A stretch of DNA of 64,000 nucleotides, from positions 1-64,000 of the forward strand of contig JAVXUO010001525.1 of NCBI GenBank assembly GCA_033065855.1. The letters run 5' to 3'. The translations under genes and the position numbers were made by a program. Of the stretch, positions 7,216 to 59,945 are shown piece after piece. Every line of letters begins with the position of its first letter. The stretch's first letter is position 1. The stretch is from Escallonia rubra (lineage: Eukaryota > Streptophyta > Magnoliopsida > Escalloniales > Escalloniaceae). The notes beneath the pieces are model-generated. The model saw nothing but the letters and a program-made list of their open reading frames with translations. It did not search any database and was not told where the DNA came from.

Positions 7216-7224
7216 TAGGAAAAA

Positions 7225-11095: not shown

Positions 11096-11104
11096 TAGGA
11101 AAAA

Positions 11105-23706: not shown

Positions 23707-23710
<4 letters not shown>

Positions 23711-23762: not shown

Positions 23763-23767
<5 letters not shown>

Positions 23768-32395: not shown

Positions 32396-32809
32396 GAGTT
32401 GGCCATTGGCCTTGGCCAACCCCTAGAGTCGGCCTCGGCCTCCCCAGAGGTGGTGACCTTGGCCTTCCCCCAATGTTTGGCCTATGGCCTCCCTCCGTTC
32501 CCCCCCGCGCGTGCACTTATTTTCTCGAGCCTTTGCACCTCTGCGATGTTTACGGACGTTCGTACATCAACCTCGCGACGTCCGTCGTACATCAACCTCA
32601 CGACGTCCGTCGCCCGTGACCGCGCACTGCTCCCGCGATGCCCGTCGCCCAAAGTCGCACGCTACCACCAAATAACCTGTCGTCGACGACCGCATACCAT
32701 CACTCCCAACTTTGTCATTACTACATGTTGCATTCATTATTTTGTTATAACAAGCACACTCAACTCATGCCCCATCTCCGGGACACCCGACGCACGCCCG
32801 TGCGCCGTC

Positions 32810-33720: not shown

Positions 33721-34160
33721 GGACCCCTTGTAGTGGACTCTGAGCACTGAGCTGCGAGCATGTCCAATCATGTTACCGTTGATCGTCGACACCACCAGGA
33801 CAATGACCCACGGGTCAGTTCGGGACGGAAGCAAGTCCTTGGAGGGCATCGCGCCTAGTCCGCCTAGCAGTTGGCTATATGGGCAACCCTCACCACTGTC
33901 AGGTTATCTATGCGTCTCTTGACGCATCTTGTGGGATTCAGTAAGGGCTTGGACCGGTGGCTGGAGCAACGGGCTTACTCTGATCATGCTACCGCTGTGT
34001 GGTCAGTCTTCTCAGACAGGTAGAGCGACGCTGTGTGGGGCAGGCAACGCAAATTTAGGAACCGGTAGTCCAACGGAGAATCGGTATTTTAGGACCCCTA
34101 GTGACGTGTCACTCCCAGCGGACGACATGTGGCACTTTATGACATAAGCACACTGTTTCC

Positions 34161-34168
34161 TATAAATA
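34161..34168 (+). promoter_or_regulatory. TATA box of the 5' LTR promoter
   Basis: TATAAATA within 'tttcctataaatagtgcac'. It lies about 385 bp before the LTR end, a normal place for the U3/R border. The matching site in the 3' LTR is TATAGATA (53776-53783). Confidence 0.7.
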
Positions 34169-34546
34169 GTGCACTTTATGACTCAAAATACGACTTTTGG
34201 CTCATTCTCACGAAATCACTTTCTCATTCTAGAATTTGGGAGATCTTGGATTCTAGAGAGAGAAACACAAATCGGACATAACCTTGGACCGTAACTTTGG
34301 ACCGTGACTTTGGACCGTGACATTGAACCTCGACTCTGACCTTTGACTTGGATTGTCGACTACCGGCCGTGTTCGTCTCAGCCTCGTCTCCGCAGCACTG
34401 CCACTCCTCACGGCCTGTCTGAGAAGCCTTGCTCTTGGCCCTAATTCTGTGCTTGCTGTCTCTCACTTTATATAATTGGAAGCTGACTTGGACTGCAGCC
34501 TTTGTGGCACCTTCACGTAGGTACGAACCAATTTTCCTTGGCATCA

Positions 34547-34570
34547 TTTTGGCACTCCGTTAGGGAGGTG
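34547..34570 (+). other. Primer-binding-site region of the Tat element
   Basis: Immediately after the LTR end, 'ttttggcactccgttaggg' has the form TTTTGGC..CCG..GGGG seen at this place in Tat elements, with substitutions. The cognate tRNA is not identified. Confidence 0.45.
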
Positions 34571-36553: not shown

Positions 36554-37917
36554 ATGACGAAGATCAAAAGATTTTTTGATGAAATGGGGTTTTCACCCGC
36601 GGCACGAACCTACCTCTCGAACTGTCTAATCGAGGTCACCACGGGCCTCGGCCCTGAATATTTCGCTGCCCAAGCCGAACTCAGACACGTCTATTCTACC
36701 GTATTAATTTTCTCAGATGAGGACTCACCACCAATCGAACACCACAACCGACAGTTGTACCTCGAATGCACCGTTAACAGCACGAGCTTCCGTCGTGCCT
36801 TAGTAGATGCGGCGCCTCAATCAACATCATACCTTTCATCACCTTGCAACGGGCCGACATTCCCCCAAGAAAAAACATCTGCGACCCCGTCAAGATTACT
36901 GGCTTTGGGCAGGGTCCCCAGTTGACCCTCGGCCATATCACTGTCGACCTCATGGTCGGAACTGTCTGTCGCGACACAACTTTTCACGTGATAGACAGCG
37001 AGTCTGCTTTCCACCTCCTGCTCGGCCGACCCTGGATCCATGTTAACAATGTTGTTCCCTCAACGTACCACAAGTGTGTAAAACTGGTGGTCGATCATGT
37101 GGGACATGAGGTAGCGATGACAATCCCTGCAACTAAGGCCCCCTTCGAATGTGTTGAATCTTACTTCGTCGAGGCCTCCTTTTTCACTGAGCTCGCCGAG
37201 GATGGTGAGAATGCTACTCATATACATTCCACCAAGTTGCCCAATTGGGATGAGCTGTGTGGAAACAAGCCTTCCAAGTCCAAGACCAAGAAAAGTACCA
37301 AGAACAAGGGATCAACCTCGGCGCCTCCTCCTACTGCCACGACCAAATCTCTCCTTCATCCCCCAAGTCCAAGAAGCAAACGGCCGAACCAACCTTCCAA
37401 CGCATCGTCAAAGACGGCAAAGTTATCTACCAATTATGATGGTGTGCGGGGGCTTCAGGTAGTTCGTCATCTGACCCTGACCCGCCCGTGGAAACTAAAT
37501 GGTGCTGCGCGGGCGAGCATTGCCCGCCAGACCCTGAACTCACCCCGGCCGCTGCCCCGCCCTGCTATGAAGACGGCCCTCGACCGCAGGCCAAAGATCT
37601 CGAAGAAATTAACTTGGCTGACCCAGGCGAGGAACCTCGACTGACATACATTGGCACAAAACTCGCCCCGGGCCGAAGAGAGGAATTGGTTACCCTCTTT
37701 CGCGAATATCGCGACGTATTGGCATGGAGTTACAACAAGATGTCTGGGTTGGATCCTGCCTTGGTGACACACCATCTCAACATTGCTAACGGGTTCAGCC
37801 CTGTCCGATAACATCCGCGATCCTTCCATCACAAGCTCGAATTGAAGATCAAGCAAGAGATCGAACGACTTCTACAAGCTGGCTTCATTGAGCCCATCAC
37901 TCATCCTATATGGTTGG
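36554..37917 (+). pseudogene. pol part 1: aspartic protease and N-terminal part of reverse transcriptase
   Basis: The protease region begins with 'QLYLECTVNSTSFRRALVD'. Directly after this the reading frame shifts, exactly at the catalytic Asp-Thr/Ser-Gly motif, and continues in another frame from 36844 ('FHLLLGRPWIHVNNVVPS', the conserved C-terminal part of the protease). A linker rich in K/S/P follows, then another frame change near 37480. The RT begins around 'LTYIGTKLAPGRREELVTLF' and 'YRDVLAWSYNKMSGLDPAL'. A CAA-to-TAA change at about 37809 stops the frame, after which 'IKQEIERLLQAGFIEPITH' is still readable. The coding sequence is cut at 37917 by a solo LTR insertion. Confidence 0.82.
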
Positions 37918-39971
37918 TGTGACACCCTCAACCCAGGCGACATCACCGGGCTGAGTTATCAACCATAATCACATTCAAAATCCTGTGATGAATACAGAGC
38001 AACTACATCCTCATACTCATACATCATTAATAGACGCTCCAAATTGCGTCCTTACAAAAATTTCTTACAAACATACATCATATTGCAGCGGAAGACTTTC
38101 AAGTCTTTAAACAACATGAAGGTTTACAACCTAATATACGACTGTAGTCGTAGGACTCTTAACAACCTATCTCGCAACTCAATCTTTATCCCACAATTCC
38201 TAGCTGGTCTTACCTCACACAACTGATCCCATTGCTCAACTTTTCTAGCTTGTGTCTTTTTCCTTTCTAGTAGGTTCTCCTTGATCAACCTTATGGCCTG
38301 CACAATACAACATAAGGAATGAGTACAAATCGCCCAGTAAAGACAACACGAGGAGTATTGTGTACAAATGATTCAAGAGACTCGGAAGAATAATAATCAT
38401 CTCAACGATAGAAATGAATCAAGAGTTCCAATAAATTTTTTACATTAGCATAATTGTCAAACGATAATTTTTCTTTCGTTAGACTGAGCGGCTTTAAGGC
38501 CCAACAGAACAGCATTACTGCCACCTCCTCATGGACTGGACTGACTGACCGACTATGCAAGTGAACCCGAAATCCAAGGTCATAAAGATAAACATCATTG
38601 AAATACAAATCATAAAAATCATCAATATCAAAATAAATTCAAATGCAATGCACATGGACACGACGGACATGACTCGACCAAACACGACAGACTCTGCTCG
38701 AGCAACATTCATCCTTTTTGGCCAATGATCATAATTCATAGGCCATCCTCCTCATATTAATGTCCCATTTTACGGGATGTTCATCTCAGTCTCAAGTAAA
38801 TTGAAGAGACACTGTCAACAAGCAGGGAACTCATTTAGAGTGATTTCCCTTACCACGTTACAGCCAAACAACAAGACTTCATCAACGGGGCGGACTAAGG
38901 GAAAGTTTGTTCCACCTTATGTCCTCAACAACACAGCTCAACAAGGAATACCGGATCAAAAGATCAACTGGTGTTCAGACCTAACAACAAGAGTTCAACG
39001 TAACATCATCAACAGGACGGACTTGGGAGAAGATTACCACAAGCCTCAACAATGTTCTTACATAAGAGGAATTTCGACTACCAATAAGTGCCGACATCTC
39101 ACAACAACACACAACGACTTCAACAACATCATCATCAACGATAGGGCGGACTCGGGAGAAGTTGCCACAAGTCCTCAATAGTGTTCTCAAAGAGAAGAGA
39201 TATCGACTATCAATAATTGCCGGCATCTCACAACCACCACACAATAACCCCTATACAATATCATCATCGACTTCAGGTATGCTAATCGAATCGAATCATA
39301 GCATACTAGGACACGCATCATCCTCATTAAATTCTATCAACAGGACGGACTAAGGGAATTTATTCTACCCTATGTCCTCAACAGCACAATTCACATATGC
39401 GTATACCGGTCACAATGACTACCGGTGACTAATTATAACAACAAGAATTCAACAACACGTCATCAACATGGCATGCTAATTGAAACAATGAATTAGCATA
39501 TGAGAACCGCGTTGTCCTTACCTGATTGGCTTATAGCCGAAGTAACTCGCAATCTTTGATCGCAACGAGCTGCATCACTTAGTCAAATCATACCCTGCTC
39601 GTTAGTCATCATTCAACATATACACATTCCTTATTCTACCCCTTCCTATTTAATCGTCTATAGCGTCTTATGACAGCTTGTTAATCCAGTCCAATAACTG
39701 GATCATTAATCCAGCCTTATCGACGCCTCCACAGTAATCACTTCCATTATTTAACGTATTAACACCACTCCTCACTTCCCACAACTCCGAACGCTTAATT
39801 ACGCGCGTTCCTTAAAATTTAGCGCTAACGTGGCAATTTATCAAAATACCCTCTGGCAGCCATCGCCCCAACAAACATCTCAAAACAACTTTAAACCAAC
39901 TTTTTGGGTGTCTTACACCCCTTCTAGAACTAAAAGTCATTCGGAAAATTTTATATGAAAAATTACCAAAA

Positions 39972-41489
39972 GGGGTAAATGTACTTTAACCCCTATACTT
40001 TAAGGCGGTTGCACTATGGCCCCCCCTACTTTAAAAAGTTGAACTAAACCCTCCTGAACTCATCAAAACCGGGCAAAATGGACGGTTTCCATCCAAGTTA
40101 ACACAGTTTTTGGGCGGGAAGTGTTTGGCGCCCAGATCTTGCATTTTCAAGACGAAACTACCCCTTTGACCCAATAAAGTGCTTAAGGCTTGCAAAAAAT
40201 CACCCAAAAAATCACCAATTTCATTTCACTCCATTTGCAAACCCTAGAAATTTTACAAAAGGTGACCATTTTCATTTCAATTCATTTGCAAACCTTCCTT
40301 TCAAAGGGTAACCACAAAAAAAAAGAATTTTATTCTGAAATTTTGAATTTTCAAATTTTAATTTCAAAAATGCAATGGGTATACCCGAACCCATACGCCT
40401 GACCCGCGCCCGCACTCTTTGGCACTTCCTCACAGTCACAGGCCGACCCAAATTCGACCTACTCCATGCCCACTTGACCCGACCCGACCCGACTGTGCCC
40501 TTCCCAAGCCCTAATTTTTTTCCACTGAAAACCCTAATCTCTATCCATGCGCCGCCAACCCTCCTTCTGGCATCTCACGCCGGCGCTCCATTCTCTGCCG
40601 ACAGCCCCCCTCCCCCCGTCGACGGCGCCGACCCATCCTCTTCCTTCCTCTTCTCTCCCCCGCCCTCCACTGCCCCAACCGCCAAGCTCTCCGCCGGCAG
40701 CCCCTTCCCCGCCATCGGCGACGCCAACCCCCTTCATCTCTCTTCTTTCCTCTTCTCTCCCCCGCCCTTCGCTGCCACAACAACCGGAGCTCTCCGCCGG
40801 TAGTCCCTTCCTTGCCATCAGTGACGCCAACCCCCTCCCTCTCTCTTCCTTCCTCTTCACTTCCTCTCCCCTCCCTCCCCCCGCCCTCCACTGCCCCAAC
40901 CACCGAGCTCTCTGCCAGCAGCCCCTTCCCCGCCATCGGCGACGCCAACCCCCTCCCTCTCTCTTATTTCCTCTTCTCTCCCCCGCCCTTCGCTGCCACA
41001 ACAACCAGCTCTCCGCCGGCAGCCCCTTCCCTACCATCAGTGACGTCAACCCCCTCCCTCTCTCTTCCTTCCTCTTCACTTCATCTCCCCTCCCCCCACC
41101 CCCGCGCCCCGCTGCCGTAACAGCCCCGCTGTCGTAACAACCCCGCTATGTCGTCAGTCCCCCTCCCCCCCTGTCGGCGACACTGACCCCCCTCTCTTCC
41201 TTCCTCTTCTCTTTTCTCACCACCCGCGGCTGCAACAGCCCCGCGGCGCCGCCACCGCCGCTGCTCCTTGCTCTTCTCTTCATTCTCCCTTCACCCACCC
41301 CAAATGGTTTGAGAGGATTTTCAGTTATGTTTAAAAGAAGGGTAGTTGTGACATTTCAGCAATCTCAGTTACGGCCATTCCACTTTGCCCAGTTTTGATG
41401 AGTTCAGGGGGGTTTAGTTCAACTTTTTAAAGTAGGGGGGGCCATAGTGAAACCGCCTTAAAGTATAGGGGGTAAAGTGCATTTACCCC
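39972..41489. mobile_element. Small MULE nested in the solo LTR
   Basis: A 1518-bp element with inverted ends 'ggggtaaatgtactttaacc' and, at the right in reverse complement, 'ggggtaaatgcactttaccc', continuing through 'aaggcggtt' and 'actttaaaaagttgaactaaac'-like text for about 150 bp. A perfect 9-bp duplication TTACCAAAA lies at 39963-39971 and 41490-41498. The interior is a GC-rich tandem array (see 40680-41110) that keeps long frames open on both strands without resembling a protein family. The TIR is unrelated to the other MULEs in the window. Confidence 0.88.
40680..41110. repeat. Higher-order tandem repeat, about 220 bp, inside the MULE
   Basis: The phrase 'ccttccccgccatcggcgac' occurs near 40702 and 40922, and its variant 'ccttccttgccatcagtgac' near 40804 and 41023. 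Alternating units of about 101 and 118 bp therefore form two copies of a period of about 220 bp. Plus-strand translation is rich in P, S and L, but the minus strand is equally open, so coding is unlikely. Confidence 0.75.
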
Positions 41490-43147
41490 TTACCAAAATA
41501 CCCCCTCTAGGCGGCAAATTACCGAAATGCCCCCGGGGGTTCACTATCACCCCAACGCCCCAAATCAGCTTCAATACAAGCTTTCAGGTGTTTTACAACT
41601 CTTTCCGGACTAAAAAATCCTTTGAAAAACTTTATCGAGAAAATTACCAAAATACCCTTCTCCGGGTGGCAAATTACTAAAAATGCCCCCTGAGGGTTCC
41701 CAGCATAAGAAAAATCTCAAAAGTGCTTTAAAATGCTATTTTAATCCTCCTGAATTCATTTTTGAGCTAAAAAGTATTTTACAAAATTTTCGCCCAAAAA
41801 TCTCGAACCGGCGTCCGGACCGAGCGCTTAAAAGCCCGTTCGGCCAAAAATGGCTAACGACTTCAGAATGACCTAAAATCTTGGGAAATGGAACTTCTCA
41901 GCATCATAGAGTCCTCATAAAAATTTTGCGCAAAACCGCGCTAGTTTTTTTATTTTAAATTTTACCGTAAAGTTCCAAACTTCCCGCATCCACTTACCCT
42001 CTTCCCGACCTCGGAAACATATGAAATATTTCCACAACACAGGTCTTCTAAAAATAACTAGGGTCTCTTTCTCATACTTTGGCTAAATCTGTCTTGAGAT
42101 ATTTTTAAAAATTCAATCAAAGGACCGAAATAACCCTACCACTTTTAGTGACTATTACAGTCACTATTCATGTATAAATGAATCAAACCCACACTATTCA
42201 CGCACCTGCACTTCATCTTCTTCCTCACTGCCGAGCTTCTCAACTTCGCGGCCATGGGATTCAACCTCTTTTCTCTTACCAATTTCTTTGTAAACACACA
42301 CAAAAACACTACTTACACCCTCCCCATCTCCATGCTACCTTCCCCCTCCCTTCTTCCTCCATCACCATGCCCCCTACACCCACACGGCAGCAGCACCAGC
42401 TGCTGCCTTCTTCCTTTCCCTCTCCCTTTTCCCCTTTCAAGCTCCCGTAGGGCACTATCTCCCTCACCGTGCACGCCAGCAGCCTTCCCCCTTGCACTAC
42501 ACCACACGCTGCACCACCACCTTGCTGAAAATATACACATTCGCACCCCATCAACACACACAGCACCGTGTATCAAAGTTGTGCACTTACTCACACAGAA
42601 CGCACACACAGCAGTCCTGTGTTGCTGTTCTTCGTCCCTCACCCTTGCACCCACACACACAACACTAAAACACATACTGAAATACAAGAATAAATTGAGA
42701 GTCTTACCACTTTAAGCTTCCTCCTTTCTATTTCTTAGTCTGCTTCTCTCCTTTTCTCTTTTTGGTTTCGTTTCTTCTTGTCCGAAACTCCCTAATCCCC
42801 AAGACCCAATATTAAATCTTTTAAGTTGCTTAGTCAATCTAAAGCAGGAGGTGGCATCTCCTTATCCGGGACTTCTGAAAAATTGACACATAAGGCTAAG
42901 TTTTCAAAAATTACGAAATAGCCCCTTAAATTCCAGAATTTACAAAATGACCCCGGGAGTTTCAAAAATTATACTCTTGCCCCTAACTTTTCAAAATTAT
43001 ATTTTGACCCCCAAAACCACACTAACCCCCTATTTAGCTCCCTAACACTTAATCATCACCAACATATTGCTACTTAATAAAAATAGCACCCCTTAATTAA
43101 TCAAACTCAAGGTTAGATTAATTTCTGGTATTTTCCGGGGTATGACA

Positions 43148-43860
43148 GTTGGCTAATGTTATTCCTGTGTAAAAGAAGAACGGCCAAGTCCACATTTGTA
43201 TTGATTTTCGGGACTTGAACAAGGCATGCCCTAAAGACGAGTTCCCATTTGCCCAACATCGACATGCTTACAGAGGCAGTTGCCGGACACGAAACCTTAT
43301 CTTTCATGGATGGTTTCGCAGGCTACAATCAAATTCGGATGAACCCCGATGACTATGCCAAGACAGCCTTCTGCACTCCTATGGGTAACTTTTGTTGGAA
43401 AGTCATGCCCTTCGGCCGTAAGAACGCAGGTGCAACGTATCAAAGAGCAATGACAACAATCTTCCACGACATGATACACCGCACAATGGAGGACTACGTC
43501 GATGATCTTATCATCAAGTCCAAAAAGGAAAGTGATCATCTCACGGACCTTCGAGCAGTCTTCGATCGTTGTCGACAATACAACATGCGGATGAATCCGT
43601 TGAAATGTGCCTTTGGAGTCTCCTCCGGAAAATTCCTCGGCTTTTTGGTCAGTCGACAGGGCATCGACGCTGACCCTTCTAAGACTGCCTCCATTCAAGA
43701 GATGCCCCCTCCCAAGAGCACCAAACAGTTGAAGAGCTTCCTCGGAAAGGTTTCTTACCTCCATCGATTCATCATTTCCTTGGCCAAACTTATCACACCC
43801 TTCCAGCACTTAACGCGCAAATTAAAGCACACTGTGGAGTTGGGGTGCACCCCAACAACA
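43148..43860 (+). pseudogene. pol part 2: C-terminal reverse transcriptase with catalytic YVDD
   Basis: Resumes directly after the solo LTR with 'LANVIPV', a TAA in place of a Lys codon, then 'NGQVHICIDFRDLNKACP', a frame shift near 43240, and an open stretch from 43249: 'VAGHETLSFMDGFAGYNQIR', 'CWKVMPFGRKNAGATYQRAM' and the catalytic 'MEDYVDDLIIKS' at about 43490-43520. The thumb and connection region 'KCAFGVSSGKFLGFLVSRQG' then 'KQLKSFLGKVSYLHRFI' follows. All core RT blocks are recognisable, so the enzyme decayed late. Confidence 0.88.
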
Positions 43861-44820
43861 AGCATTCGACCAGATCAAGGCAGTCCTCATGTCACCGCAG
43901 ACCATGGTCGTGCCACAACGAGGTATCCCACTCTTGTTTTACCTGACCTCCACGCCTAGATCCATAGGGGCACTGCTTGCCCAAGAGGTGGATGGAGTGG
44001 AGTGCCCAGTTTATTATCTCAGTAGATCGATCAGGGGGCCCGAAGCCAATTACTCTGAGCTCGAGAAGCACTGCTTAGCCTTGGTCTATGCCTCGCAGAA
44101 ATTCAGACATTAGTTCTTGCCGCACCAAATCACACTTGTCACCAAGGCCGATCCACTACGATACATGCTCATGCGCCCTGCCCTGTCTGGTCGACTCACT
44201 CGTTGGTTGTTGCTTTTGGCCGAATTTGGATTATCCATCAAGAATCCTACAACTCTACGGAGCCAAGCACTTGCAGACCTTTTGGCCTTCTTTCCGCACC
44301 AACAATATGAACCGACCTCAGATCAATTGTCTGGGGAGGAGACGACCCTGATCTCTGACATCGATGAATTATGGACGCTTGAGTTTGACGGCTCAGCCAC
44401 TAGCAAAGGTCCTAATGGAGCTCCCCTTCGGTAAGGGGGTGCTGGTATTGTCCTTTGAAATTCAGAGGGTGTTACCACATACCTATCCTTCAAGCTTGCA
44501 TTCCCGGTGTCTAACAATGAAGCTGAGTATGAGGCACTTGTCATTGGCCTCATGCTGGCTACCAGTATGAGGGCTAAGGCATTGTGGGTGAAAGGAGACT
44601 CGAACTTGATCATGAAGCAGGCCGACGGGGGGTTTGCAGTCAAGGAGCCAGCCTTGGCACCTTATCCTGCCTTGGTTCAACATTTGGAAGGAAGATTTGG
44701 CCATATCCAATATGAATATCACAACAGATGCCACAGCATTGAACCTAGTCCTGAAGGACACTACTGCAGACGATTGGAGGTAGTCGATTGTAGACCAACT
44801 TAATGCGTCATCTCTTGCTT
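43861..44820 (+). pseudogene. pol part 3: RNase H followed by a second, archaeal-type RNase H
   Basis: The first RNase H is seen as 'LFYLTSTPRSIGALLAQEVD' and 'CPVYYLSRSIRGPEANYSEL', then 'EKHCLALVYASQKFRH' followed by a TAG at 44113. The connector 'LMRPALSGRLTRWLLLLAEF' precedes a second module with 'WTLEFDGSATSKGPNGAP', a stop, 'VSNNEAEYEALVIGLMLA' and 'ALWVKGDSNLIMKQADG', i.e. the D..E..D residues of an archaeal-type RNase H. Tat-lineage elements are known for this dual arrangement. Several stops and frameshifts are present. Confidence 0.85.
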
Positions 44821-44879: not shown

Positions 44880-46345
44880 GGAGGCACTCTAGCCAGGTGT
44901 TTGGCGCAAGAAGAAGCAAAGCATAAACTACAGCTTGGCCATCAGAAGTGTTGTGGCCTCGACGGCCCCCCTCTATACCGCCGCCTCCAGCGCATGGGCC
45001 TCTTTTGGCCATCCATGCCCAAGGATGCGTCAGACATACAACGGGATTGCCTCGAATGCTTATATGCACCAGATAATGTGGAAGCTCTTGTAATCAACGT
45101 CGAGGGTGACTAGCGTCAACCTTTCATCCAATATCTATCTCATGGGATTCTACCTCATGATCGTAGCTCAGCACGATCTATCAAACGTAAGTCGGCCAAG
45201 TATTTTGTGACGGAAGGCGAGTTGTTTCGCAAGGGATTTTCAGGACGCACCCTGCGATGCTTGCAAGGCGCCCAAGCAGTCGAGGTGATTAACGAAGTAC
45301 ACAATGGTGATTATGGTGAGCATCAAGGCTCTCAGAAGCTGTATGTGGAGTTGCTAAGGTTGGGGTACTACTGGCCGACTATGGAATCCGATGCAATCTC
45401 TCATGTCCGACACTGCCAACCCTGCTAGAGACAAGCTGACAGGATGCACACACCAGCGTCCGACCTCCGCATGATCTTGGCCCCTTGGCCATTCCACTCT
45501 TGGGCTCTCGACCTCATAGGCCCCATCCACCCAACATCTCGAGGTCATACTTGGATTATGGTCGCAACGGAACGTTTCACAAAGTGGGTCGAGGCTATAC
45601 CTCTGCGAAGAGCCACGGGAGGCGTCATCGCCAACTTCTTACAAGATCACATCGTCTGTCACTTTGGTATCCCTCGGTGTATCATATCTGACAACGGCAC
45701 GCCACTCATCAACAGGGATGTCCGAGCTTTCATGGAAGGATACAACATCAACCACGCTACATCCACTCCTTACTACCCACAAGGGGATGGTCAAGCCAAA
45801 GCTTCTAACAACACTCTACTGTGGGTATTATCACGAATGGTCCATGATGCAAGTGGTTCATGGTCCGAGAAGCTAAGCCTTGCACTTTGGGCTTACAGAA
45901 CCTCCAAGCACATAGCAACAAAGACCACACCCTTTTCCCTTGTCTACGGGGACGAGTGTGTAGTACCAGCCGAGATTGTGGTCGCATCAGCCAGACTCTC
46001 CCTAAGCAGTTGGCTTAGGGAGGAAGAAACCAAAATGACCACCCTTGAAGGACTTGATGAAAGGAGAGTCAATGCCTTACGCCGTATGAAGAAATACCAC
46101 GAACAACTCACTAAGGCATATGGAAAGACTGTGAAGCAACGAACATTCGTCGAGGGCGACCTTGTTCTCCAAGCCGCCAAACATGTACGCACCAAGATGT
46201 CAGCCCCCAAGTTCACACCAAATTAGGAAGGACCACTTTAAGTGCATGAAGCCAGAGACAACGGCTCCTACCTCCTGCTCAACACGGAAGATGGACAAAT
46301 CACGGCACCTATCAACGGTCGCTATTTGAAGAAGTATTATGCATG
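44880..46345 (+). pseudogene. pol part 4: integrase, with a catalytic Glu-to-Lys change
   Basis: Two zinc-finger-like modules precede the core: one at about 44960-45060 ('LYRRLQRMGLFWPSMPKDA' then C-x2-C) and one at about 45290-45428 (H-x3-H-like 'EVHNGDYGEHQG' then 'LGYYWPTMESDAISHVRHC' and C). The core (45444-46226) reads 'PWPFHSWALDLIGPIHPTSR' (first Asp) and 'GIPRCIISDNGTPLI' (second Asp). Exactly where the third acidic residue of D,D-35-E should be, the sequence reads GQAKASN instead of GQAEASN. The C-terminal part includes 'ALWAYRTSKHIATKTTPFSL'. After 46226 the end 'INGRYLKKYYA' and a TGA at about 46345 close pol. With Lys at the catalytic position this copy should be inactive. Confidence 0.88.
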
Positions 46346-46810
46346 ACCAGCAGCGGATTGTTCCCCCAGCCCTACCCGCCCAAAGCTTAGAACATTTACA
46401 CACATAACATTTTTTGTATATGCACACCTGTTCATGACTTGTAACTTTTGCTGATTATTAAAAGTTCTTACTTTACTCATGTAATGGCATTTTGGCCCAA
46501 ATACTATCAATGCAAAGATCATTTACTCGCCTCAACTACTGTATGTAATGCACTCTTTCATTTACACATCATTCACTAAGTCGCTTGCTATGGGCGGGGA
46601 AGGGGGAACCACAACGGGAAGACACCGCATGCAAGACATACAAGCACGTCAAAAGCTAAGCATCACCTCACAACAAACACATGTACAAGATCATCATATG
46701 ACTGCCATATCAATATCAACCAAATGTATACAAGTCACAGGTTTGCAGGCCGCTACGGACCAATGACTACTAGCAAAATGAAAAGAAAACGACATCTAAC
46801 GTAAAGAAGT
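46346..46810. other. Spacer between pol and the antisense gene
   Basis: No ORF of known family; AT-richer than its neighbours. It would hold the 3' ends of both convergent transcripts (pol from the left, antisense gene from the right). Confidence 0.4.
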
Positions 46811-48006
46811 AAGCAATGCACCAACAGAATCAGAAGTGTACGACTCCAAAGTTCGTTGCTGCGTCTGTAAGTCGAACCATCTATCATCCAACTCGGCCCG
46901 CTGGCTCTCGATCTCTATCTATCGAGCCTCCGCCTCGGCAAGCCGGACCCGTATCTCGGCCACCTCCCGAGTCATATATGTCAATGCTACATCAAGCATT
47001 CGCCTACGACCCTACCACGCCACCTCCTGTGCTCCTATCATGGTCAGTCCAGCCACGGCCTCAGCACTCTGCCCCCTCGCTCTGATATAGTCGGCCAACC
47101 AATCCAACTAGAAGCCAAATGATACGAAAGGCTCGAGCTCTGACATAAACTCTGATATGAGCTCCGAAGTCCAAGTCGAGGCTGACACCGCACCAAGTGT
47201 CGCCAGCCAATCCACAAATGTAGCATACATCTCCCTGATCAATGATGCGCCCCGCATGGTAATAGCACCAGCAAACGTCTGGGGCTATCTCGCGATAATC
47301 ATCTCCAACCGATGGACTACCGAATAAGACAAGCCGATGCCCTCCCAGGATATACCATCCACCTGTCCGACTGAATACCCGCCACTGGCAACATCAGCCC
47401 TAATCGCCCTACCACCCACTGATCTCACGCCAATGGTAGCAGCATGCATCGCCAACAGAGCATCACCCGCATCTATGGCTGACCCTAACAACGTATCCGC
47501 CACAGGCTCCACAACAGACGACATCGATACCTCATGTCACAGCAACGGATCTCTAACCACTGCATGTGTAGCTGGCAACCCGTCATGTGCTCTGGTCGGA
47601 GCATCCGGCTCTCTACTGGCCCACCAATCATCACCCTCAAACATGTGACCCATCGGGCCACCGAATACCTCCTCGACCAAGACAGGCGACGGACTCGGAT
47701 GACTAACTGGCTCGACCGGCTCCACAACATCTGCTGATGTCTGCTCCGGACGACTAACCGGCTCCACAATGTAGGCTGCTACCTGCTCCACCGTCGTGGC
47801 CTCCTTAAAGGCCTCACTATCCACCGGCTCCCCTCATAGGCCGACTCGGCCTCTATCTCCTCGACCGCATCGGCCGCATCCACATCTGTCTCCTCGTCCT
47901 CCTCAGCTGCCTCAGCATCCATCCCATCAGTATCATCAGTGACAGCCTCGGCATACTCCGTGGTGTCGTCTGAGTCCACGCCAATGGCCTCATCATTATC
48001 ATCGAG

Positions 48007-48101
48007 CTCTTGTAAAAAAAAAAAGATAGAGAGAAGAACCTTATAACACACTTAACATAATAATTGGCAACTGTACAACGAAAGCAAAACATTACACTAA
48101 C
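48007..48101 (-). other. Intron in the antisense PMD gene (95 bp, phase 0)
   Basis: On the minus strand the donor is TATGAG|GTTAGTG and the acceptor TTTTTACAAGAG|CTCGATG, preceded by a long T-rich tract. The junction joins LEEYDYE to LDDNDEAIG in frame. Confidence 0.7.
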
Positions 48102-49255
48102 CTCATAGTCATACTCCTCCAGCATCTCCCGCGGCCTCTTCGGCCTGCGTCCGCCACCTGCCGAAGGACCTGCGCATGTCCGTTGTGCACCCTCCATCAT
48201 ACCCATTCTCAATGACGAAATGGGACCCTTGCCGGCACCCTTGGCACACGTCCTGCTGCCGCAGACGCTCGTGGCCCGCGCGCTGACACCGGTACATCTG
48301 ATACACCCGGAAGTAGTACCGACATGCCACACTGCCTCGCGACCTGTGCTGTGACCAACCCCAGTCCTCTGTCCCAAGCAAAGACGTCGACTTGCTGCCT
48401 GTTGGGTGGCGCCTACGACAACCACTCTGACCACGTCACCAGTACATGCTCCCACTATCGCGCATACTCAGCCGTCACTACTCATGTCGACAGCGTCCCA
48501 GGCCTCCTCCACTCCTCTGTCGGTACTGGCCACTTCCGCGACCCCTCCAAGATCGTATACCCAAAGGCCCTTCTCACATCCCACGCCCTAGTGTAGCCAC
48601 ATGGGGGCTCTAAATAATTACCGAAATTCATAGATAATCGGTCGGAACTGTATCTCGCCACGTAATATTTGTTCATAGCCGGCTTCCCGCCATCATCAGT
48701 CAATACGGGAAGCCATCCCAGAAAGTACGCCACTAGCAAGGCCACCGCCGTGTCCGTCAGCTCATCTCGACTGTGTAGTCGCACAATAGTGTCCTGCAAA
48801 TCAAGCCATGGAGGAGTACCGTACGAGCAATGCATGCCTATATACGGATGGGGAACGCACTCATCTCGATCGTCAAATATGTCTGACAGATCACGCCCGG
48901 GCTTTTTCCCGCCCACCTAAGCATATACTCGGCCACCCGCATACCAGATCGACACCTCACACGACCTGCCCGGCCGAGTCACCGTAACCTTCCTCGGCGG
49001 CGGATGTACCCCCTAGGCCGATAATCCATGTAGACCTCGAATAGATACCGATGTAAAAACATCCAGTCTACATACGTCGTCACCTGATAGCGTCCATATG
49101 ACCTCTGCACGTCATTGGAAAACTGATCCAGACGCGAGTACCAGGTGCCTAAGTAAATGGGGGCCAGCCCGACGCTACCGCCCCCAGCCATCCTAACGGC
49201 CAACTTGAACACCCTCGGGGAAACGCCATCCTCCGACGTCCCCTCAAATACAAAC

Positions 49256-49459
49256 CTACAAGTATAAGAGCATACAACATCTATATGACATCCCCACCCT
49301 GTTAAGAACGTAAAGTGCGACGCATGGCAGTATGACTACGCTAACTTTCCGAAGCATGAATTTTTTTTTCTAAGTATAGGATTCAAAATTCTATGCATAC
49401 AAGAGCAATTGAACTACAACATGCAAAAATACTAAAGGGAAGACATTAGAAACGTGTAC
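49256..49459 (-). other. Intron in the antisense PMD gene (204 bp)
   Basis: On the minus strand the donor is TTGAG|GTACACG (exon ends at 49460) and the acceptor TTGTAG|GTTTG (exon starts at 49255). Joining AG with G keeps the frame and places 'FLAMFLL' directly before 'EGTSEDGVSPRVFKLA', the expected order in PMD proteins. Confidence 0.75.
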
Positions 49460-50703
49460 CTCAACAAGAACATGGCAAGGAACCCCGCTAGCTCATATCT
49501 CTCGTCCTTATAGCAAGGACCCATGCGAAAGTTGCTCGCCGACACCGACTTTTGCCCGGGTAGCGTGGTTGCCGTACCATAGAAGTGTTTGATCCACCCG
49601 TTGTACGTACCCTTTCGATGGCTCCTTATCACTGAGGCAAACCCCTGCAGTTCCTTCACCATCAACCGTTCCACCGCCGTCAACTTCAGTTCACAAGCAT
49701 TCTCCGTCCCGTGCATCAGCAACCCCGTCTCAGCATCATCACGTCGAGAAGCGTCGGCCCAATCTCCCCAAATACAGTAATGAACGTATGCGTCTGCGCA
49801 CTCCATATAGAAAGTAACAAAGTCAAGCCCTTAACATCCCTCACCAGATCAATCACCTTGAACGTCGCCTCTATCGCAGCCACCAACCCCAACGCCTCCA
49901 ACCTCTCTACCCACGCCGACTACTCCAACATGTACGTGCACCAAAAGTTCCACCCCACCGGCATGGTGTTGTGGCCCTTGAACATCACCGGCGACCACAG
50001 CATATCTAGTCGTTCCGCCAACAAACCCGGCACGTACCTCGACGACATCACCGGGGCAACCTCCCCACTCGGCGCATGAACATACGGCGAAGGAACCATC
50101 GGACTCTCCGCCATCGACGTCACACCTTAAGGACCCAAAAACACATCCGCAGCCACTCTCTGGCCTAGCTCTCTCCAAAGCTCCTAGGGCGGGCATCCGG
50201 GCACCGCCCCCCTCGCTGTCAACAATTTATTGGTTTGTCTTGGAGTTGGATCAAAGCTCATCGCCCCACCATTGAAGCTCAACGCCCCCCGCTACCTTGA
50301 TCGGCGCGGCCTCGTCATCTCCAAACATGTCGTCCGGTGCTGACAATGATTGCCTGCTCGCTCCACCGCGACGTCGTGCACTTTGCTTCTTCCTTGTCTT
50401 TTTTGGTACTCCACCATCATTCCCATCACCTTGCGGAACGGAGTCGCGCACCCCGCCCCCGCCCCCGCCCGAACCTTGGCCTCGCGGGCGGCCTCGGCCC
50501 TTCTCTCCCGCGCCATCCTTATTTCCTCTCTTCTTCTTTCTTCTTCTCCTTTCTTCTTCTCCTTTCTTTTCTTCTTCTATTCTTCCCCTCTCCTCCCTCC
50601 CTTCCTCAACCCTCTCCATTCCCCCTTCTCTCCTCTCCATCTCCTCTTCCCCTCCCCCCTCTCCGCTTCCCCTTCCCCCCTTCCCTTTTCTCCCGCGCCA
50701 CAC

Positions 50704-51667
50704 CCACCCTCGGCCTCGGCCACCCGGGTCGGCCTCGGCCTAGCCACCTCCCCCACTCCCTCAACCCCTTTCATCCCCTCAACTCCCCCTCCCCCACGCC
50801 CAACACCCTCTTTCCCCAACCGACCGGCGGCCTTGGCCTCGCCGGGATGCCCGTCATCAACCCCCGTCCCCCTTGAACATCCCTTCCCCCATCTCCAAGC
50901 CCCCCTCCCATGCCTCCTCTCCCACGCCAGTCGGCCTCGGCCCGGCGGTGTGCCTTGGCCGCCGTCGCGGTTTGCCCATGGCCACCTCTTCCCCCATTGC
51001 CCCTACCTTGTTGCATTCTTCTTGCCTCTTATGATGTTCTCACTCTCATGGGTCTTCAAGATCCAACTCTTTCCTCTTCTTCTTCCTCTCCTTTCTTTCT
51101 CTCGTATGTGCTCTTAATTTGGCTAAGTTTTTCTCCCTCTCTCCCAAATATTGAAAGACTCAAGACTCCCACCTAACTTTCCCCCCAAAACTTTCTAAAA
51201 TCATTCAAATCTTAAAGTTTCCCCCCAAAACCCGAACAACTCTTTTAGCGTTCCATGACTTAGCGCTAACTCCTTTCTTGCGCGCTCTCATTTTTCAAAA
51301 TAATACTATTATTTTCACGTTCATAATTTTAAACCACTAATACAATTTTCACGTAAACCCATTTCCGAATAAATTCTTCTTTCGCGCTATTTATTTTTTC
51401 ACGCTAACGTTAACATAAACGCATATTCCGTCGTCTTTTCATGGCTCTACTTTTTTCTCGATTTTGCTGTTACGCTGTGCACGCTACCCCTTTAAAAAAA
51501 ATTGCAAATCACAAATTTCAAAGAATCCTCCGCTCCCTCATGTCTTTCATTACTATCGCGCCCGTTGCTCAAGATTTGACCCCGGCACTTTTTTTCAAAG
51601 ACCGATGCTTATGCCTGCGGCGCCCGCTCGGGTCGCCCCTACGCGCACACCACACGCAGGAGGCTTA
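50704..51667. other. Region between the antisense gene start and the 3' LTR
   Basis: C/T-rich on the plus strand. At about 50695-50970 it repeats GGCCTCGGCC/GGCCTTGGCC, the same motif that recurs in both LTRs. AT-rich from 51170. This is where the promoter of the antisense gene would lie, but no TATA box was recognised with confidence. The polypurine tract before the 3' LTR is weak ('gcaggagg' at about 51656). Confidence 0.45.
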
Positions 51668-54135
51668 TGTTCCCAACCCATTCTGGTCATACCCAAGGGC
51701 TCACCAGGGGTCCCGCTTCACGCAAGCACGTCGACGGATGCAACGGTCTTTTTTTCCAACGCATTAAACCGGTCAGCGCCCGCTCGCCCAAGACACGTGT
51801 TTTTCTCGCTTCGTGCGCGACTTAGGCGCCGATTATTTCGCGTCGACGTGACTCACGCTAGCACGTTCGTCACACCGAAACCACCCGAGCACCTTTTCAT
51901 CAAAAATGTAGACCGACGGCGCAACCGGAGCAACGGGGTCAAGGGGCAAAGGCCTTGGCCAACCCCATGGGGTCGGGCTCGGCCTCCCATGGGGGGTTGG
52001 CCTTGGCCTTCCCCCCCCCCGGTTCTTCATTTTTCGCGCAAAGTCCTTTTCGCACTTTTTTCGCTTCGTACGCTTTGTATATGACGTCGACACCTTGTTC
52101 GTCATGTGGGTACAATTCATGTCGACACGCTCGTCGTAACGCAACTTCCGGATTCGTCTTTGCTCATCAAAACACCTACCATCGGGGCGCCCGAAGTTCA
52201 TCGAAAGGGGGAGTGGCCTTGGCCTCCCTTCATAAGAGTTGGCCATTGGCCTTGGCCACCCCCTACGGTCGGCCTCGGCCTCCCCAAGGGTGCTTGCCTT
52301 GGCCTTTCCCCAATGTTTGGCATATGGCCTCCCCCCCCCCCCACGCGCACTTGTTTTCTCGAGCCTTTGCACCTCCACGATGTTTACGGACGTTCGTACA
52401 TCTACCTCGCGAAGCCCGTCGTACATCAACCTCATGACGTCCGTCGCCAATGACCGTGCACCGCTCCCGCAATGCCCGTCGCCCAAAGTCACGCGCTACT
52501 ACCAAATAACCCGTCGTCGACAACCGCTTACCATCACTCCCAACTTTGTCATTACTACATGTTGCATTCATTTTTTTGTTATACCAAGCACACTCAACTC
52601 ATGCCCCGTCTCCGGGACACCCGACACGCGCCCGTGCGCCGTCTCCGCGACGTTCGTCACCTCGCCCGTACGCCATTCTCATCATACGTGCCCCCGGCAC
52701 CAAGTATTGATCCGCGACGTTCGTCGCCACGCCCGTGCGCCATTCTCATCATACGTGCCCCCGGCACCAAGTATTGTTCCACTTTCATAACATGTGCCCC
52801 CGTCACCAAGTATTGTCTCTGCGACGTTCATCGCCGCGCCCGTGCGCCACTTCCATGACATGTGCTCACGGCACCAGGTATTGTCTTCGCGACGTTCGTC
52901 GCCGCGCCCGTGCGCCACTTTCATAACATGTGCCCCGGCACCAGATATTGTCTCGTGCTGTAGGCACCGCGCCCATGCTCCACAATCATGTTACATGCTT
53001 CCCGAATGGGCTCACAACCTTAAAGCCATCGTCGTCTCAATCACGGGGGGCTTCGGCCCTCGCACCGGGATGGGCTCACAACCTTAAAGCCATCGCCGTC
53101 TCAATTACGGGGTGCTCCGACCCTCGCAGCGGGATGGACTCATAACCTTATAGTCATCGCCGCCACGGGATGGGGTCACAACCTTAAAACCATTGCCGGC
53201 ATAATAACGGGGGGCTCCGGCACGAGGACCCCTCGCAGCGGGATGAACTCACAACCTAATAGTCATCACCGCCACAGGATGAGCTCGTAACCTTAAATCC
53301 ATCACCGTCACAATCACGGGGGGCTCCGGCACGAGGACCCCTCGCAGCGGACTCTGAGCACTGAGCTGCGAGCATGTCCACTCATGTTACCGTTGATCGT
53401 CGACACCACCAGGATAATGACCAACGGGTCACTCCGGGACGGGAGCAGGTCCTTGGAGGGCATCGCGCCTAGTCCACATGGCAGTTGGCTATAGAGGCAA
53501 CCCTCACCACTGTCAGGTTATCTATGCGTCTCTTGACGCATCTTGTGGGATTCAGTAAGGGCTAGGACCGGTGGCTGGAGCAACGAGGTTACTCTGATCA
53601 TGCTACTGCGGTGTGGTCAGTCTTCTCAGACAGGTAAAGTGACGCTGTGTGGGGCAGGCAACACGAATTTAGGAACCGGCAGTCCAACGGAGAATCGGTA
53701 TTTTGGGACCCCCTAGTGTGGTGTCACTCCCAGGGGACGACATGTGGCACTTTATGACATAAGCACATTGTTTCCTATAGATAGTGCACTTCATGACTCA
53801 AAAGATGACTTTTGGCTTATTCTCACGAAATCACTTGCTCACTCTAAAATTTGGGAGCTATTGGATTCTAGAGAGAGAAACAAAAATCGGACATAACCTT
53901 GGACCGTAACATTGAACCTTGACTCTGATCTTTGACTTGGACTGTCGACTGCCGGCCATGTTCGTCTCAGCCTCGTCTCCGCAGCACTGCCACTCCTCAC
54001 AGCTTGTCTAAGAAGCCTTACTCTCAGCCTTTACTCCGTCCTTGCTGTCTCTTACTTTATATACTTGAAAGCTGAGTCGGACTGCAGCCTTTGTGGCACC
54101 TCCACGTAGGTACGAACCCACTTTCCTTTGCATCA
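51668..54135 (+). mobile_element. 3' LTR of the Tat element
   Basis: A 2468-bp LTR, 'tgttcccaacccattctgg' to '..cctttgcatca'. It follows the 5' LTR along its length but lacks the 310-bp duplication and several array units. Its TATA box reads TATAGATA. It ends exactly where the sequence of a minus-strand LTR begins (54136), so the element lies inside that LTR. Confidence 0.88.
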
Positions 54136-55924
54136 AAACCATCGCTTTTCAATATAAACATAGGGATGCGTATCAACTCAATCCCTTAAATCAATAATCA
54201 TTTCAAAATAATTCATGTGCAATAAAACAGAAACATGAAACATTGAGCATGAGTAGTATGATGTAGCAAAGCGACCCCGGCAGTGCTCAATACGCTTTAC
54301 ATATGCATATGTACACTAACTAGTCCATTTAGGTACTAGTTTAACCCAACCAACAGACCATCCTTATAACTTCAGCAATACAGACCATCCTTATAACTCC
54401 CAGATTACTAACTCATGTCAACATTGAGAAGCAATAAATAGAATTGAAAATATTTTACGGTGATTGAGTCAATAAACAAATAAGTATGAATCAGAATTTC
54501 AAACGATCGCTAAACGGCTCAAATTAGGGTTTCCCTGACATTTCCAAATATTTTCATGGAAATTTAATAAAACCATAGTGCAATAGTATTTGCAAAATAG
54601 TTGAGATAAAAACATCTGATTTAAGAATAATGAATAGGGTTCCGAGAGAAAATCCTTACCTTGATCAAAGTTATGCTACCTCGATCAAAATTCTTTGAAT
54701 AAACCTAGATTGGCAATTCATTTGTTAGAATACAATCTATGTCTAATATGTTATAAACCCTAATATCAACTACCCACCACATGCCCACTTGTAACCCCAA
54801 AATCGCGTGACTCGAAGCGGGTCCCGTACACGACCAACCTAACTGAAAACCTTGTACGCTACTTAATGCGTAACGATAACCTAAAATTCATAATAAATTA
54901 AAATAAAATATTTTTATTGCTTAAAACATTATAACAAGTTAAAATATGAATTTTTTGAATTTTTAAATATTTTTTAATTAAAAATAATTTCTTTGGATGC
55001 AATAAATGCATCGAGTCTTCCTCTTTCTTCTATTCTTTTTACACACCCACTCACATATATGTGACACACACACATCACTCACTCACTGCCTCACTCTTAC
55101 GGCAACCATGGCTGCCTCTAAACCCAATTAACAACCATTTTTTCTCTCTAAAGGCAGCCATTCATGGTTGTCTCTCTCACTAAATTGGCCCCTTCATGGA
55201 TGTTCTTTGGTGGCGTCGCGAATATTGGTTGATGGCAGCTTACTCCCTCTCCTTACACGGCAGTCGCCTCCATGGCAAGTCCATCACAGCCCTTACACAA
55301 TTTGTTCTCTTTCCCAACGCAGCCACGTAATTCTACAACCATTATTTAAACAAGAGAGAAACCGGACCTTACCCGAAATTTGCCGGAAAACTCTTCTTCG
55401 CGTTCGTTCTTCGTCTCTGTTCCACGTTCTCTCTCTCTCTCTCCCTTAAGCGTTTATAGAATATATGGGACGAGAATTAGGGTCGACTATGGCATCTTAG
55501 TTGTGCATATATATAAACAAAACCCTAAAAAGACAATTACTAAAAAAAACCCTAAAGTTTCGTTAGTTATTAATACCCTAAAGTACCCACGACTTTTTAT
55601 TATTACAAAATAGTCCAAAATAACTATTTACAATAGAATAATGCCCTAGGAAAATTTTAACGGGTTGTTACGCTACCCCGCTTCACTAATCGTCGCTAAA
55701 TGTATAACGATGTTAAAAAAATATTGTCGCTAAAAGTCGCTAATAAAAATACCAATGCTAAGTTAAATGTATTGTCGCTAAAAAGTTACCGATAAAATTC
55801 CATTCATTGCAATCGACGTTAAATCTTTCATATAAAAGTCGCTATAAGGTATATTAATGCTAAGAAAATAAATTGTCGTTAAAAAAATCAAAATCAATCC
55901 GTTAAATTATATTGTGGTGTTACA
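54136..55924 (-). mobile_element. Truncated 3' LTR of a minus-strand LARD-like element
   Basis: On the minus strand the LTR starts 'tgtaacaccacaatataa' at 55924 and matches 56855-59849 closely, block by block, down to 54136, where the Tat element cuts in; about 500 bp of the LTR end is missing. Compared with the other LTR it lacks about 1.2 kb (counterpart about 57690-58930), the break falling near 'aatgcaataaatgcatcgag' at about 55000. Confidence 0.82.
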
Positions 55925-56358
55925 TTCTTCCCCACTTATAAAAATTTCGTCCTCGAAATTTCATTTACTTATAAGATCGAAGAACTACGCCCTTACTATG
56001 TAACTCCCAAACGAAGATGTCACTGAATCTTACACATAACCTCCAAAATAATGAGTCAAGAACATCCATAGCAACTTCGATCGTTTCACAATACTATAAT
56101 ATTTCGATTATAACGTAGGATTTCATAATCCAACCAACCGGATATTGATACTCAACATCGAAATAATTAGCCAATTCCTATAAACACTCAAATCAAACGA
56201 TCTAACCACTATGCTTTCACTGCACACTCAGATATCTGGCCACTACTAAGGTCCAACTAAGTCACTAAAGTTTTTGCTAACGCTCTTGTCAAAACTTAGG
56301 CTTTTCCTAACTTGTTTCTAAAGTCTGCAGAATCATATACCTAAGCTCTGATACCAAC
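55925..56358 (-). mobile_element. 434-bp interior of the LARD-like element, with PBS and polypurine tract
   Basis: On the minus strand, TGGTATCAGAGC (complement at 56345-56356) two bases after the LTR is a perfect initiator-tRNA-Met primer site. At the other end 'atttcgaggacgaaattt' and the purine tract 'aagtggggaagaa' (55925-55937) precede the next LTR. Nothing between them codes for protein. The element keeps only what is needed in cis for reverse transcription and integration. Confidence 0.82.
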
Positions 56359-59300
56359 TGTAACATCCCGAGATTTTTGGAACGTTAACACTCACTCGAC
56401 CATAAACACTAAGGCAATAAAACCCTCAAACTCAACCAATTTAGAATCATTAGCCAGTCAGAGCCACTAAACCATTGAATAATATAGTACTCTTAGCGTA
56501 CTATCATAATTGAAAGGACAAGACTAAGTAAAAATTTCTAAATAACAATAATAACCCAGGCAGGTGTTCTAATGACCAAAACTAAAACTTAAATTCTCTT
56601 TGCCTCGCTTGGCTCTAATCCATACTCAGGTAACCTAGTGCTGGTTATCACCTACGGAAAGGAAGTCAAAGGAGAGTGAGCTTTCGAGAGCCCAGTAAGG
56701 TCGATCAAAGATTTTTAAACAACAAAAACGATTCGGATGATTTTACATTTAAACCAAATAACAACTTTTAAAATGGGAAAACATAACGATTGAAATGATT
56801 TTCTATATACAATCAAATGATAATTTTAAAAAGAGTTTTCAAAGAAAACCACAGCATTTCAATATAAACATAGGGATGAGTATCAACTCAATCCCTTAAA
56901 TCAATAATCATTTCAAAACAATTCATGTGCAATAAAACAGAAATAGAAAACATTGAACATAAGTAGTACGATGTAGCAAAGCCACCCCGGTAGTGCTCAA
57001 TACGCTTTACATATGCATATGTATACTAACTAGTCCATTTAGGTACTAGTTTAACCCAACCAACATACCATCCTTATAACTCCCAGATTACTAACTCGTG
57101 TCAACATTGAGAAGCAATAAATAGAATTGAAAATATTTTACGATGATTGAGTCAATAAACAGATAAGTATGAATCAAAATTTCAAACGATCGCTAAATGG
57201 CTCAAATGAGGGTTTCCCGGGCATATCCAAATATTTTCATGGGAATTCAATAAAACCATAGTGCAATAGTATTTGCAAAATAGTTGAGATGAAAACATCT
57301 GAGTTCAGAATAATGAGTAGGGTTCGGAGAGAAAATCCTTGCCTCGATCAAAGCTATGTAACCTCGATCAAAATTCTCTGAATAAACCTAGATTGGCAAT
57401 CCATTTGTTAGAACACAATCTATGTCTAATATACTATAAACCCTAATATAAACTACCCACCACATGCCCAATTCTAACCCCGAAATCGCGTGACTCGAAG
57501 CGGGTCCCGCACACAACCAACCCAACCGAAAATCTTATACGCTACTTAATGCGTAACGATAACCTAAAATTCATAATAAATTACAATAAAATATTTTTAT
57601 TGCTTAAAACATTATAAAAGGTTAAAATATGAATTTTTTGAATTTTTAAATATTTTTGCATTAAAAATAATTTCTTTAAATGCAATAAAATCCATAAATA
57701 GCCATAATTGTCTCAAGCTGAAAATAAAGTCCCATAATTTTTTAAGAGATTAAAAATATGTATAAAAATTATGGAAATTGAAATCAGAATTTAAAAAGAA
57801 TTAAAACTATTTTTAAATTTTTAGTTTTGCGAAAACCAATGCGATAAGGAAACTATACAACATAAACTCTAAAAATTACCAAACTTAAACTGGGACTTAT
57901 TTATACCATAAAAACATTACTCTAAGTTTTCCAAAACATTTTCATGAGTTTAAAGGCTCCAAAATATTTTATAAATCTGAGTTTACAGAAAATATTAAAA
58001 ATACCTACGATTTCAGAAAATTAAAAAATTTTGCCCCAATTTCTTATATAGCCTAATGTATTATACTATAAAGTTTCACGTTCAAAAAATCATCGTACGC
58101 TATCAAATGCTCGCATCGTACTTAACACTAACCCAATACCCAATCCGCACTTTTCTTCTCCTTCTTCTTCTCCTTCTTTGTTACAGCCCACATATAAACT
58201 CACAGCCAATAAACTCACAGCCCACTCACATCACGGCTACTGCCTCATGGCAGTAGCTTCTTCCCTTCTCATTTCACCCTTACACCTACAAACACATTTT
58301 TTCACTCACTCATACACATTAATAGCACACACTAACTCACATACACTCTTATTTCAATTCACTCACAGTAGCCCACCATTTCTTTTTGCACCCACATATG
58401 TATAGGCCTGTGTAATTACACAATCACACATGCACGCACATATCTCTTACAGCCATTCACTCCCTCCCTACACACACCCTCTTACACACACACACAAAAA
58501 GTACCTTGTTGTACACATAAAACTGTGCAGCCTCTTCCTTCAACCACACACCTGGACTTCACACACCTCACCACTCTCACACTTGCACCAATTTCACTTG
58601 CATAACTCACATCCACTCTAAAACATAAACACATGTGCATGCACACACCATTTCACTCACTACTTCACACATACTTCCTTATTTTACACACCATTTCACT
58701 CACTACTTCACACATACTTCCTTATTTTACACACCATTTCACCCACATATACTCCACTATACATCAAAGCACACCGCCACATCCCAGAACCCTCTACACT
58801 CATTATTCCCACCATATATATAGACACACACCTCATCTCACTAGTTAACCAACCCCCATTACCTCAACAAAAAAAAACATAACCACATTCAAATATCACT
58901 TCCACATGCCCACTGCCTCACGGCAGTGGGTCTCCCTCTTTCTCCTATACTTTTTACACACCCACTCACATATATGTGACACACACATCACTCACTCACT
59001 GCCTCACTCTTACGGCAGCCATGGCTGCCTCTAAACCCAATTCACAGCCATTTTCTCTCTCTAAAGGCAGCCCTTCATGGCTGTCTCTCTCTCTAAAAGT
59101 GCCCCCTTCACGGCTGTTCTTTGGTGGCGCCGCGAACATCGGTTGACGGCAGCTTACTCCCTCTCCTGGCAGCTTACTCCCTCTCCTTACACGGCAGTCC
59201 CTTCCATGGCAACCATCACAGCCCTTACATAATTTGTTCTCTTTCCCAACGCAGCCCCGTAATTCTACAACCATTATTTAAACAAGAGAGAAACCGGAGC

Positions 59301-59849
59301 TTACCCAAAATTTGCCGGAAAACTCTTCTTCGCGTTCCTTCTCCGCCTCTATTCCACGCTCTCTCTCTCTCCCAGTCTCCCTCAAGCATTTACAGAATAT
59401 ATGGGAAGAGAATTATGGTCGGTTGTGGCATCGTAGTTGTGTATATATATATAAGCAAAACCCTAAAAAGACAATTACTAAAAAAAACCCCAAAGTTTCG
59501 TTAATTAGTAAAAAAATGTACCCACAACTTTTTATCATTACGAAATAGTCCAAAATAACTATTTACAATAGAATAATGCACTAGGAAAATTTTAACGGGT
59601 TGTTACGCTACCCCGCTTCACTAATCGTCGCTAAAAGTATAACGATGTTAAAAAAATATTGTCGCTAATAAAAATACCAATGCTAAGTTAAAAGTATTGT
59701 CGCTAAAAAGTTACCGATAAAATTTCATTCATTGCAATCGACGTTAAATCTTTTGTATAAAAATCGCTACGCGGTACATCAATGCTAAGAAAATAAATTG
59801 CCGTTAAAAAAATTAAAATTAATCCGTTAAATTATATCGAGGTGTTACA
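56359..59849 (-). mobile_element. 5' LTR of the minus-strand LARD-like element
   Basis: A 3491-bp LTR, minus strand 'tgtaacacctcgatataa' at 59849 to '..tcgggatgttaca' at 56359, with inverted TGTAACA/TGTTACA ends. It contains CA-rich stretches (58430-58850) and a short tandem duplication at about 58645-58740 ('caccatttcactcactactt'). The sequence is non-coding; apparent ORFs are low-complexity H/T/S/P. Confidence 0.82.
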
Positions 59850-59945
59850 TTTATTTTGCTTCTCTTAGGTATATAATTAGAGAAAAGTAGCTAATGGCCT
59901 CTTGTATTATACGCGTTGTGCGATTTCCACTTCCACTTCAAATTT

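Follow-up and report, generated by a model that had tools for sequence, protein, structure and literature searches.

Genes for plant mobile domain (PMD) proteins have already been described in angiosperm retrotransposons. PMD clades A1 and A2 are reported to be encoded only by Gypsy retrotransposons, and the Gypsy-borne clades are widespread among angiosperms (Ikeda et al. 2017, PMC5418596). In the Ogre clade, 57% of elements carry PMD (Neumann et al. 2019, PMC6317226), and a screen of plant LTR elements found PMD to be the commonest non-canonical domain, in consensuses from ten species. Within the literature on PMD in LTR elements, the available text of the Ogre study (PMC6317226) contains no statement that the Ogre PMDs are antisense genes on the 3′ side. 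Antisense extra ORFs between pol and the 3′ LTR have been published for Grande, RIRE2 and Retand (PMC11963269, PMC7264820). One of them, Grande gene23, is described in a review as driven by a promoter of its own and as encoding a nuclear product (PMC7264820). The antisense domains given in the available part of a 2025 Retand survey are TRP28 and five others, with PMD unlisted (Vicient 2025, PMC11963269). Among host PMD proteins, MAIN and MAIL1 partner with PP7L to act in silencing as well as in gene expression (PMC7156037).

The window, that is, the whole 64,000-nucleotide stretch of Escallonia rubra DNA analyzed here (contig JAVXUO010001525.1), contains an ordinary, decayed example of a PMD gene in an element of this kind; such genes in such elements are already known. 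A first-pass annotation had placed an antisense PMD gene inside a Tat retrotransposon and had noted that extra ORFs, often antisense, are familiar from the Tat lineage. Because Gypsy and Ogre PMDs and Tat antisense ORFs have been published, this interpretation is mostly not new. Beyond that annotation, we find that the gene is broken, that it contains apparent introns, and that a nested insertion interrupts pol.

The host element

Self-comparison for LTRs and Pfam profiles delimit a Tat-type Ty3/gypsy element at 31489-54135 (Table 1). Two LTRs enclose gag, reverse transcriptase (RT), RNase H (RH) and integrase (INT) in Ty3/gypsy order; no Pfam match to a protease domain was obtained in the element. 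An RVT_3 domain lies between RNase H and integrase (44459-44803), and a second RNase H at this position characterizes Ogre and Retand, the angiosperm clades of Tat (PMC6317226). The element is called Tat, as in the first-pass annotation, because RT_RNaseH, then RVT_3, precede the integrase, and it appears to belong to the Ogre/Retand group, as a member of either of these two clades. RT homologues number 4,153 matches, and lineage labels are absent among the 120 listed. The open stretches 36778-37644 and 37440-37811 overlap, leaving no visible gap in this damaged copy. PF04195, the antisense TRP28 domain of Retand, is absent from seven minus-strand open stretches and from the read-through of the PMD gene, a scan that covered only a small part of the tail at 47827-46799 in its own frame.

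The LTR pair is 89.1% identical over 2,465 aligned positions (K2P 0.119). At substitution rates of 1.3e-8 or 6.5e-9 per site per year, this divergence corresponds to an age of about 4.6-9.2 million years. No target duplication of 4-6 bp was found around 31489-54135 (flanks ACTAT and AAACC); age or rearrangement may explain its absence. A stretch resembling a primer binding site, TGGCACTCCGTTAGGGAGG, directly follows the 5′ LTR. Ogre elements have a primer binding site for tRNA-Arg; the window contains no tRNA gene with which the stretch could be compared. Tandem arrays of 36-109 nt units occupy 52644-53350 within the 3′ LTR, and matching repeats occur in the 5′ LTR.

Table 1. Features of the Tat-type element, its nested insertion and its antisense PMD gene (window coordinates).
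Feature	Position	Strand	Basis or detail
5′ LTR, TG...CA, 3,058 bp	31489-34546	+	direct repeat with 51668-54135
Primer binding site-like stretch TGGCACTCCGTTAGGGAGG	34550-34568	+	directly behind 5′ LTR
gag	35142-36488	+	PF03732, E = 1.7e-7
RT region, start, one stop	37608-37916	+	tblastn of P0001, 48.5% over 103 aa
Nested insertion in RT, TG...CA, 5,230 bp	37918-43147		GTTGG on both flanks
RT remainder and RNase H start, three frames, one stop	43149-43996	+	PF00078, E = 1.2e-25; tblastn of P0001
RNase H	43826-44434	+	PF17919, E = 3.6e-20; PF17917, E = 2.3e-12 and 6.5e-4
Second RNase H, aRH type	44459-44803	+	PF13456 RVT_3, E = 1.7e-9
Integrase, zinc-binding and core	45114-46226	+	PF17921, E = 8.1e-11; PF00665, E = 1.9e-11
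Tail, five in-frame stops, charged at end	46799-47827	-	acidic overall
Acidic linker	47830-48009	-	28 D+E, 0 K+R in 60 aa
Possible second intron, 95 nt, GT...AG	48007-48101	-	GTTAGT...ACAAGAG; outside homologue coverage
Possible C-terminal PMD half, two stops	48458-48961	-	open stretch; no Pfam match at E ≤ 1
PMD exon with LAPIYLGTWYSRLDQF block	48982-49254	-	PF10536, E = 1.3e-3 alone
Apparent intron, 204 nt, GT...AG	49256-49459	-	GTACAC...TTGTAG
PMD after frameshift	49459-49728	-	tblastn of P0121/P0122, 60%, gap-free
First PMD exon part, three in-frame stops	49719-50276	-	tblastn of P0121/P0122, 65-67%, gap-free
Putative N-terminal stretch, mildly basic	50254-50535	-	19 K+R, 13 D+E in 94 aa
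3′ LTR, TG...CA, 2,468 bp	51668-54135	+	direct repeat with 31489-34546

Nested insertion and other repeats

The 5,230-bp insertion in RT is bounded by a perfect 5-bp target duplication (GTTGG), and the tblastn match of RT to protein P0001 stops at 37916 and picks up again at 43149. The insertion is perhaps a solo LTR, since self-comparison showed no internal LTR pair. It contains a 113-nt inverted repeat (39970-40082 and 41379-41491, 95% complementary), which flanks a GC-rich tandem array at 40633-41102 as a second nesting layer.

Further repeats lie elsewhere in the window. Direct repeats at 1-1101 and 3885-4970 (80% identity, 3.9 kb apart) have a layout like that of an LTR pair. A minus-strand retrotransposon gag match at 7659-8174 (PF03732, E = 2.9e-14) is flanked by inverted repeats at 7224-7550 and 10770-11096. 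A SWIM zinc finger, a domain that occurs in MULE transposases, is encoded on the minus strand at 23486-23989 (PF04434, E = 1.6e-7). Downstream of the Tat-type element, there are two interleaved pairs of direct repeats (54135-55006 with 56845-57689, 90%; 55015-55926 with 58930-59851, 88%), the first starting at the final base of the 3′ LTR. Rfam gave zero matches across the window.

The antisense PMD gene

The end of the integrase (46226) is separated from the 3′ LTR by 5.4 kb, and the minus strand there encodes a PMD gene, as the first-pass annotation had proposed. A read-through of this gene, in which X stands for each stop or break and the first intron is omitted, matches PF10536 over profile positions 9-168 of 347 (E = 1.3e-18). 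Its score of 67.8 bits exceeds the curated cut-off of 34.9 bits, below which the single parts fall. Individual minus-strand stretches match weakly (49335-48979, E = 3.5e-4; 49862-49719, E = 2.3e-6), as does 50261-49719 with X at its stops (E = 2.1e-5). The second half of the profile is unmatched, and the stretch 48961-48215 has no match at E ≤ 1.

A homologue search with the 708-residue read-through returned nothing at E ≤ 0.001 among 7,994 candidates, and one limited to the PMD part returned 2 matches at E ≤ 1 among 857. With the PMD part as query, the Escallonia rubra PMD proteins P0121 and P0122 are homologues (E = 3.0e-37 and 1.5e-34). In tblastn against the window, both align gap-free at 60-67% identity, P0121 with 118/181 and 54/90 identical residues (E about 1e-90) and P0122 with 122/182 and 53/88 (E about 1e-92); on the reversed window, used as a control, their best match reaches only E = 1.1. 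Viral contigs scanned with one PMD exon and with the alignment yielded no relative, and the product has no match among solved structures at E ≤ 1. The structure prediction of P0122 (with P0121) has a mean pLDDT of 30 and was not used.

The P0121 alignment is gap-free over 271 residues at only 60-65% identity, which points to coding constraint before the copy died and suggests that the protein of the antisense gene was then under selection. Alternatively, the RNA itself could be what matters, an antisense transcript pairing with the sense RNA to feed small-RNA silencing of the element or of related PMD genes. Tea is reported to have 175 PHAS loci, sources of phased small RNAs, at PMD genes (PMC10673657), and dsRNA from antisense ORFs has been raised as a possibility in a review (Vicient and Casacuberta 2020, PMC7264820). 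The gap-free similarity to the Escallonia proteins favors a past protein, and the two readings are compatible; we consider the RNA role rather unlikely.

The architecture described in the first-pass annotation is largely recovered. Both motif blocks that it quoted are found (THTFITVFGEIGPTLLDV and LAPIYLGTWYSRLDQF), as is its acidic linker (48009-47830), and its limits of 46811-50703 were about right: the last codon lies at 46799 and the N-terminal stretch extends to about 50535. The basic N-terminus stands in part. The stretch 50535-50254 is mildly basic, carries the cluster PKKTRKKQSARRRG and resembles the first residues of P0121 and P0122, as judged by eye only. It is in a different frame from the PMD start, and for this reason we only infer that it is part of the PMD gene. 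The charged tail also needs qualification, being charged at its end and acidic overall, and it is interrupted by its in-frame stops. A look for TATA motifs on the minus strand gave none ahead of the gene within 50500-51700 and one at 48844.

The segment 49459-49256 is read as an intron because similarity to P0121 and P0122 ends there, the PMD profile resumes beyond it, and its ends are GT...AG. A second intron at 48101-48007 is possible, judging solely from splice-like ends and the open acidic stretch behind it. As far as its sequence goes, the antisense gene seems to keep two introns. Sense-oriented introns tend to be lost through splicing and copying of the element RNA; antisense introns are not introns of that sense RNA. 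The apparent introns of the PMD gene fit this general consideration.

Such introns are also what a host gene would bring, had an intron-bearing host PMD gene been caught by, or inserted into, a single element or close family. Several observations speak against a one-off capture of this sort. No inverted repeats of at least 14 nt are present within 46227-51667, the site and orientation are the usual ones for Tat-group accessory ORFs, and Gypsy-borne PMD clades are reported from angiosperms widely (PMC5418596). Moreover, P0121 and P0122 lie on different Escallonia contigs and are 82% identical to each other, as would fit a repeated family. We regard the one-off capture as unlikely. Nor is there support for the idea that a DNA transposon brought in the antisense region, given the same lack of inverted repeats.

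Decay of the copy

Across the 271 residues covered by P0121, the PMD gene has three stops and one frameshift. Over about 382 residues, the RT/RNase H matches to P0001 contain two stops and change frame twice, and from these lesion counts the genes on both strands decayed at similar rates. The stops, the frameshift and the broken pol mean that the element copy is dead, and this copy cannot make a whole PMD protein. The possibility that the host took over this copy as a gene has practically no standing: we found nothing in its favor, PMD decay has kept pace with that of RT/RNase H, and domestication was rejected on the lesions in the 271 residues.

Interpretation

The locus is probably one more element-borne PMD gene of a known type, in a copy that is dead. 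The gene is taken as part of the element because its site and orientation match those of Tat-group accessory ORFs. Counting against this explanation are the half-matched PMD profile, the Retand survey without PMD, the lack of a stated antisense orientation for the Ogre PMDs in the available text, the low confidence of the structure prediction, the lack of an upstream TATA motif and the missing target duplication. If it is correct, the Tat-type lineage (Ogre/Retand group) would carry an accessory antisense PMD gene of its own, presumably throughout the lineage. In live members, an antisense promoter would drive the gene, its transcript would presumably be spliced, and the product, in which a PMD is followed by the acidic linker and the charged tail, would probably be nuclear. 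This protein, related to the host MAIN/MAIL1 module, might act on chromatin or transcription for the expression or survival of the element. A nuclear, chromatin or transcription role is favored because the Grande antisense product is nuclear and MAIN and MAIL1 act with PP7L; drawn by analogy, the chromatin role is put forward only tentatively. It is a very long shot that antisense placement lets the element carry an intron-bearing, regulated PMD gene that competes with the host MAIN/MAIL1-PP7L silencing module.

PMD proteins are both host silencing factors and retrotransposon cargo, and the order of these origins is left open by Ikeda et al. (2017, PMC5418596), as is the direction of transfer, with a leaning toward host domestication over capture by elements. 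Adoption of a host gene by the element, which the first-pass annotation suggested as one option, is the less favored of these directions and no more than a possibility here. To this question the present locus, a clearly bounded antisense PMD gene that has apparent introns and sits in a Tat-type element, contributes a single data point. Where introns fall in host PMD genes and in those of elements could reveal the direction of transfer.

Comparison with known systems

Like the reported PMD-A1 and PMD-A2 genes (PMC5418596), the gene described here is a PMD inside an angiosperm Ty3/gypsy element; the copy here, however, is broken, and it is likened to them by domain. The Ogre elements with extra ORFs matching pfam10536 (PMC6317226) are, like the present one, very large members of the Tat group that carry PMD and have their second RNase H placed between RH and INT. 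The present element may be either Ogre or Retand; the Ogre PMDs are given without a stated orientation in the available text of that study. MAIN and MAIL1 of Arabidopsis (PMD-C; PMC7156037, PMC5418596) belong to the same domain family, a likeness by name only, and are host genes, whereas the PMD here is element-borne. Retand, Grande and RIRE2 (PMC11963269, PMC7264820) have the same antisense gene site and a likewise long internal region, but their antisense ORFs are reported to encode TRP28, SMC-like and other domains, where the Escallonia element encodes a PMD.
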